A program made the translations under genes and the position numbers. From positions 1 to 64,000 of the forward strand of contig CANOEC010000012.1 of NCBI GenBank assembly GCA_947564735.1: a stretch of 64,000 nt of DNA, given 5' to 3'. Under the pieces are notes generated by a model. The model was not told where the DNA came from and ran no database searches. It saw only the letters and a program-made list of their open reading frames with translations. The stretch is from an uncultured Lachnospiraceae bacterium. GTDB taxonomy: Bacteria > Bacillota > Clostridia > Lachnospirales > Lachnospiraceae. Within the stretch, counting starts at the first letter, position 1. Every line of letters starts with the position of its first letter. Of the stretch, positions 8,545 to 14,373 are shown piece after piece.

Positions 8545-11500
8545 GTAATCTTTCCGTCTTTTTTCTTCCTTCCCCGTCTGGCGATACCCGCAATATCAAT
8601 CAACGTCATCTCACCCTCCGAAGCTGCGTTTTCCAGACTGGACACCAGCGCCGTGGCAGTATCCATGGCGGTAATACAGTTGACGCCTGTCTCGATTGCC
8701 GTCCGGCGGATTAAGAAACCGTCCCTGTTCTTATCACGTCCCTGCGTAGGCGTATCAATTACAAGGTCAATCCGATGTCCCAGAATCAAATCCATAACCG
8801 TCGGTGATTCCTGATGAATCTTATTGACTTTTCTTGCTTTTACGCCAGCCTCATTGAGAGCCGCCGCCGTGCTTCTCGTCGCATAAATGATATAGCCCAG
8901 CTTTTTAAAACGGCGCGCCACCTCAATTGCCTCGCCTTTATCCGCATCCTTTACGGTGATAATCATCTGCTTATGCTTCGGCAGATTGACGCCGGCGCCT
9001 AAGAATGCCTTGTAGAGCGCCTCATTGAAGGTCTTCGCAATGCCGAGACACTCTCCGGTAGACTTCATTTCCGGTCCCAAGCTGATTTCTGCACCACGGA
9101 TTTTTTCAAAAGAAAATACCGGCATTTTAACGGCATAGTAATCCGCCGCCGGCTGCAAGCCCGGCTCATAGCCCAAGTCACGTATTTTCTTACCGATAAT
9201 CACTTCCGTCGCCAAGTCCACAATCGGAATGCCCGTCACTTTGCTGATATACGGCACAGTACGGGAAGACCGGGGGTTTACCTCAATCACATACACTTCA
9301 TCCCCCATGGCGATAAACTGGATATTAATCAGTCCGATAACATGAAGCGCCTTCGCCAGCCTTCTGGAATACTCCGCAATGGTTTCTTTCACCTTTTCAC
9401 TGACCGTAGGCGCCGGATACACGGAGATACTGTCACCCGAATGCACGCCTGTCCGCTCAATATGCTCCATGATACCCGGAATCAGAATATCCGTGCCGTC
9501 GCACACTGCGTCCACTTCAAGTTCTTTTCCCTGTAAATACTTATCTACCAGAATCGGATGTTCCTGCTCATAACGGTTGATGACCGCCATAAATTCTTCG
9601 ATTTCCTGATCGGACAGTGCGATCTGCATTCCCTGACCGCCCAGCACGTAGGAAGGACGCACAAGCACCGGATACCCCAGCCTGTTTGCTACCGCTTTCG
9701 CCTCATCAGCCGTATACACCGTGCCGCCCGCAGCTCTCGGAATCTGCGTCTCTTCCAGAATCTTATCGAAAAGCTCCCGATCCTCCGCCGCATCCACGTC
9801 TTCCGCCTTCGTACCAAGAATGGGCACACCCATCTTCATCAGACTCTCCGTCAGTTTGATTGCGGTCTGTCCGCCGAACTGCACCACTGCGCCGTCGGGC
9901 TTCTCCACATTGACGATGTTCTCCACATCCTCCGGCGTCAGCGGCTCGAAATAGAGTTTGTCCGCGATATCAAAGTCCGTGCTGACTGTCTCCGGATTGT
10001 TGTTGATGATAATCGTCTCATAGCCCTCTTTTGCAAAAGCCCATGTGGCGTGTACGGAACAGTAATCGAACTCAATCCCCTGCCCGATACGGATAGGACC
10101 CGAACCAAGCACCAGCACTTTTTTCTTCGGATGGGTTTCCACCACTTCCGTCTCGGAACCAAACACGGAATAGTAATAAGGGGTGCTCGCCGCAAACTCC
10201 GCCGCGCAAGTGTCCACCATCTTAAATGCCGCCACAATACCGTTATCATAGCGCATCTTCTTAATCTCTTCTTCCGTCCTGCCTGTCAGCCTTGCAATCA
10301 CATTATCCGGAAACTCGATTCTTTTTGCTTCCCGCAAGAGTTCCACTGTCAGCGGTCCTTCTTCCAATGCCGCTTCCATTTCCGTCAAAATTGCAATTTT
10401 ATCTATGAACCAGTGGTCTACCATCGTAATTTCATGAATCGTATCATAGTCGATGCCTTTGCGGATTGCCTCTGCAATGATATAAATTCTCTGGTCATCC
10501 ACAATTTTCATGCGCTCTTTCAATTCCTCCGCACTAAGCCCGGAAAAATCATAGCTGCGCAGACAGTCCACATGCTGTTCCAGCGAACGGATTGCCTTCA
10601 TCAGTGCGCCTTCAAAGTTGTTGCCGATACTCATCACTTCTCCGGTCGCCTTCATCTGTGTGGTAAGTGTACGTTTTGCCGTGATAAACTTATCAAAAGG
10701 AAGCCTCGGAATCTTCACCACACAGTAGTCTAACGTCGGCTCAAAGCTGGCGTAGGTCTTGCCCGTAATGGCATTCTGAATCTCATCGAGCGTATAGCCG
10801 AGCGCAATCTTCGCCGCAACCTTTGCAATCGGATACCCCGTCGCCTTACTTGCCAGCGCGGAGGAACGGCTCACACGGGGATTCACTTCTATCACACAAT
10901 ACTCGAAACTGGTCGGGTGCAGTGCAAACTGCACGTTACAGCCGCCCGTAATTCCCAGCTCGTTGATGATATTGAGCGCCGAACTCCTGAGCATCTGATA
11001 TTCTTTATCACCCAGCGTCTGCGAGGGAGCCACTACAATGCTGTCGCCTGTATGCACGCCCACCGGATCGATATTTTCCATATTACATACGGTGATACAG
11101 TTGCCGGCGCTGTCACGCATCACTTCATACTCAATCTCTTTCCAACCGGCAATACACCGCTCCACCAGCACCTTCCCTTGTGGTGGAAAATATTGAGGAC
11201 GGCGTCGCATTTGCCAGTAAAATCGGGTATCCGGTGGTGCTTCGCCCAGCGTATAGGCAGGGCGAAGCACCACCGGATACCCGATTTTACTGGCAAATGC
11301 GACGCCGTCCTCAATATTTTCCACCACAAGGGAAGGTGCACAGGGCTCCCCGATTTTCTCCATCGTCTCTTTAAATTCCAGACGGTCTTCCGCTTTCTTG
11401 ATTGTCTTCGCCGTGGTGCCAAGAAGCGCCACGCCATGTTTTTCCAGAAATCCAGACTCATCCAGCTCCATTCCAAGATTTAAGCCCGCCTGTCCGCCCA

Positions 11501-11768
11501 TATTCGGCAGAAGACTATCGGGCTTTTCCTTGATGATAATCTGCTCTAACACCTTCGTCGTCAACGGTTCGATATATACTTTATCCGCGATATCACCATC
11601 CGTCATGATGGTCGCCGGATTGGAATTGACCAGAATCACCTCCATGCCCTCTTCTTTCAAAGAACGGCATGCCTGCGTGCCCGCATAGTCAAACTCCGCC
11701 GCCTGTCCAATCACAATCGGACCAGACCCAATCACCAGTACTCTCTTTACATTCGGATTCTTAGGCAT
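8541..11768 (-). CDS. carB: Carbamoyl-phosphate synthase large subunit, with aberrant first ATP-grasp loop
   Basis: CarB makes carbamoyl phosphate from bicarbonate, ATP and the ammonia channelled from CarA, feeding pyrimidine and arginine synthesis. Both halves are recognisable: each begins with a VLVLGSGP-type loop followed by QAAEFDYAG or QGIEFDYCS, and the second ATP-grasp domain has the normal RPSYVLGGQGMQIA. In the first half the matching loop is broken. RPAYTLG is followed by EAPPDTRFYWQMRRR... up to residue 199 instead of the expected GTGGGI-type loop of about 28 residues, and normal sequence resumes at VLVERCIAGWKE. The foreign stretch is the reverse complement of the 80 bp just upstream. 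The frame stays open (1075 residues), but carboxyphosphate synthesis should be lost if the sequence is real. The gene overlaps carA by 8 bp and queH by 4 bp. Confidence 0.95.
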   Translation of the reverse strand: MPKNPNVKRVLVIGSGPIVIGQAAEFDYAGTQACRSLKEEGMEVILVNSNPATIMTDGDIADKVYIEPLTTKVLEQIIIKEKPDSLLPNMGGQAGLNLGMELDESGFLEKHGVALLGTTAKTIKKAEDRLEFKETMEKIGEPCAPSLVVENIEDGVAFASKIGYPVVLRPAYTLGEAPPDTRFYWQMRRRPQYFPPQGKVLVERCIAGWKEIEYEVMRDSAGNCITVCNMENIDPVGVHTGDSIVVAPSQTLGDKEYQMLRSSALNIINELGITGGCNVQFALHPTSFEYCVIEVNPRVSRSSALASKATGYPIAKVAAKIALGYTLDEIQNAITGKTYASFEPTLDYCVVKIPRLPFDKFITAKRTLTTQMKATGEVMSIGNNFEGALMKAIRSLEQHVDCLRSYDFSGLSAEELKERMKIVDDQRIYIIAEAIRKGIDYDTIHEITMVDHWFIDKIAILTEMEAALEEGPLTVELLREAKRIEFPDNVIARLTGRTEEEIKKMRYDNGIVAAFKMVDTCAAEFAASTPYYYSVFGSETEVVETHPKKKVLVLGSGPIRIGQGIEFDYCSVHATWAFAKEGYETIIINNNPETVSTDFDIADKLYFEPLTPEDVENIVNVEKPDGAVVQFGGQTAIKLTESLMKMGVPILGTKAEDVDAAEDRELFDKILEETQIPRAAGGTVYTADEAKAVANRLGYPVLVRPSYVLGGQGMQIALSDQEIEEFMAVINRYEQEHPILVDKYLQGKELEVDAVCDGTDILIPGIMEHIERTGVHSGDSISVYPAPTVSEKVKETIAEYSRRLAKALHVIGLINIQFIAMGDEVYVIEVNPRSSRTVPYISKVTGIPIVDLATEVIIGKKIRDLGYEPGLQPAADYYAVKMPVFSFEKIRGAEISLGPEMKSTGECLGIAKTFNEALYKAFLGAGVNLPKHKQMIITVKDADKGEAIEVARRFKKLGYIIYATRSTAAALNEAGVKARKVNKIHQESPTVMDLILGHRIDLVIDTPTQGRDKNRDGFLIRRTAIETGVNCITAMDTATALVSSLENAASEGEMTLIDIAGIARRGRKKKDGKIT
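11168..11339. repeat. 80-bp perfect inverted duplication inside carB
   Basis: Positions 11168-11247 and 11260-11339 are exact reverse complements, separated by only 12 bp (AGCGTATAGGCA). The copy at 11260-11339 encodes normal CarB sequence (about residues 144-170). The copy at 11168-11247 replaces the codons of the glycine-rich ATP loop (about residues 175-200). The junctions fall at short shared words (GGC-G and AAGGTG), as expected for template switching by a folded-back strand during replication, amplification or assembly. Confidence 0.97.
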
Positions 11769-12954
11769 TCCTATCCCTCCTCATTGTCTCAATAAAACGG
11801 TCAAACAAATCCCCGGAATCCTGCGGTCCCGGACATGCCTCTGGATGAAACTGCACCGTGAAGATAGGTTTTCCCGTATAGGACAGTCCTTCGTTGGTGC
11901 CGTCGTTGACATTGACAAATGCAGGAACCGCCACCTGCGGATCCAGCTTGTCCGTATCCACCACATACCCGTGATTCTGGGAAGAAATATAAACTCTCCC
12001 GGTCTGCAAATCCTTCACCGGATGATTACCGCCTCTGTGCCCGTATTTCATCTTATAAGTATCCGCACCTGTGGCAAGCGCCATCAGCTGATGTCCAAGG
12101 CAGATTGCAAAAATCGTGATATCCGTATCGTACAGCTTCTTAATCTCGGCAATCACTTCCGTACATTCCTTCGGATCGCCCGGTCCGTTACTGAGCATAA
12201 TACCGTCCGGCTCCTCTCCAATGATTTCTTCTGCCTTAGTGCCTGCCGGATAAACCGTCACTTCACAGCCCCGTGCTGCAAGAGACTTGGCAATATTATC
12301 TTTTGCCCCTAAGTCAAGGAGCGCCACCTTCAATCCTTTTCCGTTCAGTTTACGCACCATGCTCGGTTTCTTTTCACGGATGCCTTTGTCGTATTCCGCT
12401 TTCTGAAACCGGGAACTGCCGGATAGCGGTCCGTTATCCGATAACTCCCGTGCCGCCGGCAGCGTATATTTTTCTTTGCAGGTCACACGTTCCACAACCT
12501 TGCCGGTCGTGTACGCCTTTAACTTCGGAAGCACCACGTCCAGCTGATAATTTTCGTCCGTGGTAATCATGCCGTTCATGGTTCCCTTTTCACGCAGCAG
12601 CTTGACGAGCGCCCTCGTATCAATCCCAGCGATGCCCGGCACGCCGTTTTCTTCCAGAAACTCCTGAATCGTCATATCACATCTGAAATTGCTGGGAACA
12701 CGCGAAAGCTCTCTGACGATAAAACCGTCCGGCCATGCCCTGCGGGACTCCATATCTTCCCTGCAGACGCCATAATTACCAATCAGGGGATAAGTCATAC
12801 ACACCGCCTGTCCCGCATAGGAAGGGTCAGTCAGCACTTCCAAATATCCCGCCATTGAGGTATTAAATACGATTTCACTGATGACCTCTCCCGGTGCACC
12901 GATATGTGTCCCTTCAAAAATAGTCCCATCTTCCAAAATTAAGAATGCTTTCAT
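11761..12954 (-). CDS. carA: Carbamoyl-phosphate synthase small (glutaminase) subunit
   Basis: The 397-residue class I glutamine amidotransferase subunit that hydrolyses glutamine and passes ammonia to CarB. The N-terminal CPSase domain begins with FLILEDGTIFEG and contains FNTSMAGYLEVLTDPSYAGQ. The C-terminal glutaminase domain has the nucleophile Cys in FAICLGHQLMALA, GHRGGNHPV, and the His-Glu pair in VQFHPEACPGP. It overlaps carB by 8 bp, so the two are translationally coupled, and it has its own consensus promoter. Confidence 0.97.
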   Translation of the reverse strand: MKAFLILEDGTIFEGTHIGAPGEVISEIVFNTSMAGYLEVLTDPSYAGQAVCMTYPLIGNYGVCREDMESRRAWPDGFIVRELSRVPSNFRCDMTIQEFLEENGVPGIAGIDTRALVKLLREKGTMNGMITTDENYQLDVVLPKLKAYTTGKVVERVTCKEKYTLPAARELSDNGPLSGSSRFQKAEYDKGIREKKPSMVRKLNGKGLKVALLDLGAKDNIAKSLAARGCEVTVYPAGTKAEEIIGEEPDGIMLSNGPGDPKECTEVIAEIKKLYDTDITIFAICLGHQLMALATGADTYKMKYGHRGGNHPVKDLQTGRVYISSQNHGYVVDTDKLDPQVAVPAFVNVNDGTNEGLSYTGKPIFTVQFHPEACPGPQDSGDLFDRFIETMRRDRNA

Positions 12955-13104: not shown

Positions 13105-14373
13105 CTATTCCCCGGATAAATCACAGTACAGCATGGATACCGCCGGCACGGTTGGTCTTGTTTCAATCAGATTCGCCGGCAGCTTACAATTCCCGAACAA
13201 CTGTCCGTAGACAGTCAGGATATCTCCCTCTAAAACGAATGTCGTATCCGCCTTCCTGTCATCCCTTATAATATAATAACGCTCAATATCATTCTTTTCT
13301 TCCGCTACGCACAGATAATAGGTATTGTCATCAAACAGCCCGCCTTCCACCAGACAGATGACCCGCGTCTCCAGCATAATTGCCTTGCCCAGATACTCCT
13401 CCTGCTCCCTTAGCAGCGCTTTATAAGCAACGTTCACGCAAGCCGTGCGGAACGCAGCCTCATCCGCATCTGGCTTCTCTGCTGCATCCGAATCCGCCGC
13501 CTCTGGTTTCTCCACTGCATCCGGCTTCTCCGTCGTTTCCTCCTTGTCCCGCGCATCCGGCTTCTCCGTTACATCCGAATTCTCCGCCGCCTCTGGCTTC
13601 TCCGCTACATCCGAATCCGCCGCCGTCTCTGGCTTCTCCACTGCATCCGGCTTCTCCGTCGTTTCCTCCTTATCCCGCGCATCCGGCTTCTCCGTCGTTT
13701 CCTCCTTATCCCGCGCATCCGGCTTCTCCGCTGCCGGTTCTGCCGCCTCTTTACTGCCGCTCTCCTGTTCTTTTCTTTCCGTCTCTTCCGCTACGGTGGG
13801 AACCCATGCAGATTCTGCCGCCTGTACCACCGCCGCTGTATCCGCATCCACAGAAACCTCCTTAAGCGCCCCGTCTCCTGCACCTGCACCAGCCACGGCA
13901 GACTCCACTGATTTTGCAGCGGCCGCTGTTTCCGGCGTTTCCACCGAAGTCACTGCAAAAGCCTCCTTGGACGGCTCTTTTTGTCCCATCCATGCCGCCA
14001 CAGCAAAATCATTCAATATCCCTTCATGTGCCAGAAAAAGGTAACCTGCGCCTCCGATCAATACGATTGTAAGCACCGCAGCAGCAGCTTTCCAAAAAGC
14101 ATAACTTTTCAAAGTCGTCTTACAGTTGGGGCATATCCTTGCCTTACTCGGTATCATCACACGACAGTATTTACATTCCTTCAACTTGACATCCGGTGCA
14201 AATGCATATTCCTGCCGCATAGAATCACTTTTTGTCTCTACTGTTTTTTCTTCTGCTCCCATCTTTCTAACCATGTCCTTTCCATAGCCTGTATCTTCCG
14301 CTTTTCTTCTATCCGCTCCGAAAAGACCTCCTGCACGGAATCCACCCGTACATGAGGCCTTTCTCATCAACAT
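13105..14373 (-). CDS. Membrane zinc-ribbon protein with acidic Pro-Asp-Ala repeats
   Basis: Not assignable to a characterised family. In order it shows a short zinc ribbon (CKYCRVMIPSKARICPNC, near residue 70), one transmembrane helix (AAAAVLTIVLIGGAGYLFLA) and an Ala/Glu-rich stretch. A block of degenerate 12-residue EKPDARDKEETT-like repeats follows, then a C-terminal beta-rich domain of about 120 residues with ILTVYGQLFGNCK, which could be an OB-like fold. The zinc ribbon is probably cytoplasmic and the repeats and C-domain extracytoplasmic. The first ATG overlaps the purL stop (TAATG) but has no clear ribosome binding site; ATGs at codons 34 and 38 are possible real starts. Confidence 0.75.
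   Translation of the reverse strand: MLMRKASCTGGFRAGGLFGADRRKAEDTGYGKDMVRKMGAEEKTVETKSDSMRQEYAFAPDVKLKECKYCRVMIPSKARICPNCKTTLKSYAFWKAAAAVLTIVLIGGAGYLFLAHEGILNDFAVAAWMGQKEPSKEAFAVTSVETPETAAAAKSVESAVAGAGAGDGALKEVSVDADTAAVVQAAESAWVPTVAEETERKEQESGSKEAAEPAAEKPDARDKEETTEKPDARDKEETTEKPDAVEKPETAADSDVAEKPEAAENSDVTEKPDARDKEETTEKPDAVEKPEAADSDAAEKPDADEAAFRTACVNVAYKALLREQEEYLGKAIMLETRVICLVEGGLFDDNTYYLCVAEEKNDIERYYIIRDDRKADTTFVLEGDILTVYGQLFGNCKLPANLIETRPTVPAVSMLYCDLSGE
13486..13735 (-). repeat. In-frame tandem repeats encoding EKPDARDKEETT-type units
   Basis: About 36-bp units encoding EKPDARDKEETT recur three times almost exactly (near 13543, 13655 and 13691), interspersed with diverged EKPDAVEKPE and EKPEAAENSDV units. 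Near-identical DNA in an acidic linker suggests recent slippage and probable copy-number variation. Confidence 0.85.

Follow-up and report, generated by a model that had tools for sequence, protein, structure and literature searches.

Inverted copies of nearby sequence have been described both in living cells and in DNA amplified outside them. In great apes, the segments copied by template switches in vivo are 12 long at the median and 128 at most (PMC7954356), while artificial palindromes occur in amplified DNA (PMC6218980). In E. coli, SbcCD cuts a 246-bp interrupted palindrome but not one of 85 bp; both are tolerated where repair is working, the 246-bp one in cells that possess SbcCD and recombination (PMC3315005).

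The window, a stretch of 64,000 nucleotides from an uncultured Lachnospiraceae bacterium, contains a carB gene with an inverted structure of 172 bp. Taking all forms of artefact together, this structure is probably an artificial inverted copy, one of many in the draft assembly, and most probably absent from the organism, and the living strain most likely carries an ordinary carB.

The inverted copy inside carB

Two exact arms of 80 nt were found in inverted orientation within carB, separated by a spacer of 12 nt (Table 1), as the initial annotation had described. A repeat search returned arms of 86 nt at 98% without a spacer, because four of the six spacer pairs match too. Chance would yield about 1e-39 exact inverted pairs of 80 bp within 300 bp in 4.5 Mb, which excludes it as the source of the carB pair. 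The native arm and the spacer align to relatives at their position, while the other arm does not. Like a two-step template switch, the structure shows a nearby inverted copy and a return to the original strand, and the snap-back form proposed at the outset agrees with the comparison to relatives.

The CarB translation runs from GYPVVLRPAYTLG through 24 foreign residues into VLVERC in a frame that stays open; translation and relatives together bear out the early observation that the glycine-rich loop was overwritten with the frame kept. Pfam domains CPSase_L_D1 and CPSase_L_D2 were found twice each, D3 and MGS once each, and E. coli CarB (1bxr) matches the protein with 1029.6 bits. In that alignment TMGGSGGGIAY of E. 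coli stands opposite TLGEAPPDTRF of the window CarB, the part lost in the first ATP-grasp half being this loop plus the residues that follow; the residues of the inverted copy did not align as CarB. A motif search found the glycine-rich loop motif of the first ATP-grasp half absent from the window carB. Pfam nevertheless recognises the domains, CPSase_L_D2 scoring 363.7 bits in the window CarB and 403.5 bits in the homologue of Eisenbergiella tayi (L048). The glycine-rich loop binds ATP, and its loss should abolish carboxyphosphate formation.

Table 1. Features of the carB locus in the window and inverted pairs at seven other sites of the assembly
Feature	Location	Strand	Remarks
carB, carbamoyl-phosphate synthase large subunit, 1075 aa	8541..11768	-	frame open across inverted copy; Pfam; E. 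coli CarB match
Native arm, source of copy; encodes APSLVVENIEDGVAFASKIGYPVVLR in carB	11260..11339	-	aligns with relatives here
Spacer, 12 nt, native, inside PAYTLG codons	11248..11259	.	aligns with relatives
Inverted copy, 80 nt, replaces 92 native nt including glycine-rich loop	11168..11247	-	comparison with relatives
Inner switch junction, CGCCC / GGGCG flanking spacer	11243..11264	.	bases common with four relatives: 5, 3, 3, 0
Outer (return) junction, GCACCT	11168..11173	.	bases common with four relatives: 6, 6, 1, 0
carA, small (glutaminase) subunit	11761..12954	-	adjoins carB; sole full CarA detected in genome
Inverted pair	L234 13158-13434		arm 120
Inverted pair	L140 466-718		arm 110
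Inverted pair	L189 2113-2329		arm 92
Inverted pair	L152 684-897		arm 88
Inverted pair	L030 13020-13243		arm 83
Inverted pair	L214 3843-4034		arm 78
Inverted pair	L165 18757-18937		arm 78

Relatives and the second CarB

All 36 same-genus relatives found match the carB region; 34 of them span 881 nt against 869 in the window, and the other two, matched in part, exceed the window query by 12 and 13 nt. The loop motif was checked in 19 same-genus loci (L006-L024) and was normal in every one, the other 17 relatives being judged from span alone; comparison of carB in sister genomes had been proposed as a check in the initial annotation. Across the site the net change is exactly -12 against three aligned relatives, which makes precise a shortening of about 12 bp first estimated from the letters of the window. 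Among the 80 loci of the genome collection, the strict loop motif was found in 57 and a looser motif in 20 of the remaining 23, with neither in L051, L116 and L122. The best named loci in the collection belong to three Lachnospiraceae MAGs and Eisenbergiella tayi, and no conspecific genome was found in the genome collection searched, from which the strain's own genome was possibly left out. In Eisenbergiella tayi, an inverted pair of 92 bp, diverged (93.5%) and with a spacer of 101, lies upstream of carB (L048 4437-4721).

A further idea, on which these relatives bear, is that carB holds a regulatory or phase-variable element, a functional hairpin or switch. The perfect 80-bp stem could fold and the frame is open, but the glycine-rich loop is lost, the ordinary loop stands in all 19 of the same-genus loci examined, and the other seven sites have unrelated sequences. 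A function of this kind is hardly credible and was rejected on the normal loop of the same-genus loci and the unrelated sequence of the other sites.

An intact second CarB of 1082 aa, 45% identical and with the loop GGAGGG, is encoded on contig C6 (34660-37905; L027 9657-12905), as had been foreseen for the case of a real loss. No carA was found near it among L027 frames of at least 120 aa, and the genome has one full CarA, with two weaker matches (33% and 28%) over parts of the query. By a count made by eye, in which some matches are partial, the second CarB is matched at 86% or above in 47 of 61 genus genomes, the strain's own included, and 14 list no such match. The intact second CarB could cover a genuine loss of the window CarB.

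Inverted pairs across the assembly

The scan of the strain's own assembly covered 120 stretches, or 2,395,844 of 4,524,511 bases (53%), and spacers up to 300. Eight exact inverted pairs of the same class were found, including that of carB, with spacers of 12-58 and arm lengths of 78, 78, 80, 83, 88, 92, 110 and 120, followed by 25 as the next longest. By extrapolation from eight events in 2.396 Mb, about 15 are expected over the whole assembly. A unique adaptive mutation of carB was rejected on account of the seven further events, whose sequences are unrelated to carB. The arms were sought as exact, and hence their 729 identical positions are no independent evidence.

In a same-genus control of 20 stretches from four genomes (0.40 Mb), no exact arm of at least 40 was found, the longest being 21, and the 80 other loci (1.01 Mb) likewise gave none, with a longest arm of 31. 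At the assembly's own rate, zero events in both controls has a probability of 0.009, and in the same-genus control alone of 0.26. The distribution that would mark an artefact, many unrelated sites here and none in relatives, was thus found over controls of 1.41 Mb. Furthermore, a mismatch-tolerant scan gave identical outer ends for all eight pairs. In the strain's own stretches scanned, none of the pairs it returned was a half-decayed member of this class, and slow decay was accordingly not seen. In the controls the same scan returned the 92-bp pair of L048 described above, a 47-bp pair in L048 with a spacer of 428, and weaker pairs. If arm lengths followed an exponential with the mean observed, all eight would reach at least 78 with a probability of 0.001, in a test picked post hoc.

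Other repeats were met in the same material. The mismatch-tolerant scan also gave imperfect pairs whose spacer is near 187, which in the three stretches searched (L136, L149 and L223) are TwoAYGGAY RNAs. With imperfect inverted arms on either side, these RNAs (RF01731) lie at L136 4443-4610, L149 10438-10605 and L223 2803-2970, and arms resembling the flanking ones occur also in L131, L158, L222 and L026. In the window, direct repeats in an 18-nt register (13458-13768) lie within the frame 13105-14373 (-) and encode EKPDARDKEETT-like units.

Genes at the eight sites

An open frame ends inside seven of the eight inverted pairs, and that of carB alone stays open. Among the interrupted genes are trpD (TIGR01245, 350.3 bits, above the cut-off, profile 3-275 of 330) and the start of an O-acetylhomoserine sulfhydrylase-type gene (TIGR01326, 156.3 bits, 1-126 of 418, below the cut-off). 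The L152 piece is a PAS and HisKA sensor kinase, L030 holds a Penicillinase_R repressor adjoining a Peptidase_M56 frame, and an M20 peptidase lies alongside the L165 site, whose upstream piece gave no family above the cut-off in the family search. A single regulator match below the cut-off (TIGR04094, 83.7 bits) was obtained for the L140 piece, and the family search returned none for the L234 piece. The sites in L189, L030 and L165 are near gene ends, where the loss may be that of the tail alone.

Lengths and junctions

Lengths and junctions were compared for seven events, that of L030 not being among them. The copy stands for a replaced stretch of similar size: 80 for 92 in carB, 92 for 88 in L189, 88 for 82 in L152, 78 for 68 in L165, 110 for 101 in L140, 78 for 74 in L214 and 120 for 106 in L234. 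The differences are -12, +4, +6, +10, +9, +4 and +14, or 4-14 nt in all seven. Whole-span net changes of -33 and -102 for L189 and of +28 for L165 include differences outside the copy.

By a strict count against the best relative, the bases shared at the outer and inner junctions are 6/5 in carB, 0/5 in L189, 0/4 in L152, 1/5 in L165, 2/2 in L140, 7/8 in L214 and 7/0 in L234. At least four bases are shared at one junction or more in six events and at both in two, the relatives standing in for the strain's earlier sequence. Just past one or two mismatches at the outer junction, L189, L152 and L165 each show a run of 5-6 shared bases, and divergence of the relatives could be the cause of these interruptions. 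The short junction homologies reported initially for carB hold against the best relative, but not against every relative (Table 1).

One form of artefact would be purely computational, a gap of approximately known size having been filled with misoriented neighbouring sequence and no chimeric molecule having existed. The copies come within 4-14 nt of the replaced length in every event compared, as an insert-size-guided filler would give, junction homology is unclear at some sites, and the carB stretch that was lost, sought with a relative's 301-bp sequence at E 0.001 or better, was found in no second place in the assembly, a search that a short or diverged piece could escape. Where the homology is clear, however, it amounts to 4-8 bases, far below the usual assembler words, which are much longer. 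Within the artefactual origin, gap filling takes a lesser share and is doubtful as the sole process. Copies as long as what they replace would be expected where an assembler or gap filler chooses among alternatives of about equal length.

The junctions bear also on real mutation, in which the lineage would have undergone a recent burst of long two-step template switches during replication, one of them disabling the first ATP-grasp half of CarB while the second CarB compensates. The shape and the strand return fit the four-point template-switch model (PMC7954356), and the junction bases of carB and of L214 against the best relative fit as well. An intact second CarB is present, and coding genes with long perfect inverted repeats are reported from Nematomorpha mitochondria (PMC6649704). 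Against real mutation, the lengths begin sharply at 78, no half-decayed events occur in the scanned stretches, the frame ends inside seven of eight pairs, and homology of four or more bases at both junctions is found in only two of seven events by the strict count. In Nematomorpha, moreover, both arms code conserved residues, whereas the copy here fails to align as CarB. Real mutations are unlikely, and it is quite improbable that a Lachnospiraceae-type lineage underwent a genome-wide burst of 78-120 nt two-step switches, with carB, trpD and others damaged and a spare CarB sustaining carbamoyl-phosphate synthesis.

Origin of the inverted copies

A polymerase switch accounts for the shape whether inside or outside the cell. 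What favours an artefact of library or assembly over cellular mutation is the multiplicity of the events, their sharp lower length limit, the lack of decayed members and the agreement in length. Events in the cell would be expected to be mostly short, to differ in age and to be selected against where they damage genes; these expectations are not borne out, which again argues for an artefact. The initial annotation had left replication or amplification/assembly undecided; the form that it described stands, and eight events in 53% of the genome tip the choice to an artefact.

We infer an origin outside the cell, most likely in vitro during amplification or library making. Synthesis would switch to a nearby inverted position around CGCCC/GGGCG, copy 80 nt of carB backwards and return to its own strand near GCACCT, and the resulting chimera would enter the consensus in the assembly of short reads. 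The limit of 78 was presumably set by an assembler word length near 77, a value that SPAdes commonly uses. In a toy graph with k=77, the chimeric and the native path begin to have vertices in common once the arm reaches 76, while k=99 gave an odd branch value, 65; the toy graph illustrates a possible origin of the length limit and not its actual one. In such a model, a short-read graph with a word length of about 77 could impose the limit of 78, any shorter copy being a plain side branch of the native path.

The genome encodes SbcD, and palindromes of 172-277 bp would sit uneasily in it; this argument is weak, because the 246-bp palindrome of E. coli is tolerated with SbcCD and recombination. 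Several points speak against an artefact. By analogy with the great-ape copies, which reach 128, such lengths are not impossible in cells; the carB frame is preserved; and the diverged pair in L048 shows that long inverted pairs exist elsewhere. A weak point of the artefactual origin is that the in vitro sources cited here, MDA and library preparation, do not describe a double junction in a consensus. A literature search on connections made by assemblers returned nothing relevant.

If the copies are artefacts, genes are silently damaged in a genome scored 99.49% complete, and metabolic models would be misled by a false loss of carB, trpD and the sulfhydrylase gene. Such scars can be detected quickly by screening for inverted pairs whose arms are perfect and whose spacers are short. 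If they are real, an unusual mutational process would be at work in bacteria.

Comparison with known systems

The inverted chimeras of MDA resemble the carB structure in being inverted, local and primed by a few complementary bases, but as described in PMC1855051 they join two segments with an intervening deletion and no return, whereas here the sequence returns. Library-preparation artefacts of the PDSM model are alike in that chimeras form at short inverted repeats natural to the genome; as described in PMC10908179, they are low-frequency soft-clipped read ends in human DNA, in contrast to the consensus change seen here, and such read-end chimeras should lose to native reads in a consensus. 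The coding palindromes of Nematomorpha mitochondria share with carB the long perfect inverted repeats inside protein genes; according to PMC6649704, both of their arms encode conserved, functional protein, while in carB the copy removes a conserved loop. The two-step, or four-point, template switch, a quasipalindrome-type mutation, is alike in its nearby inverted copy and strand return. It differs from the present case, in which there are many events in one genome, matched lengths in seven of seven and patchy junction homology; the copied lengths here are 78-120, whereas those of great-ape switches have 12 as their median and reach at most 128 (PMC7954356).
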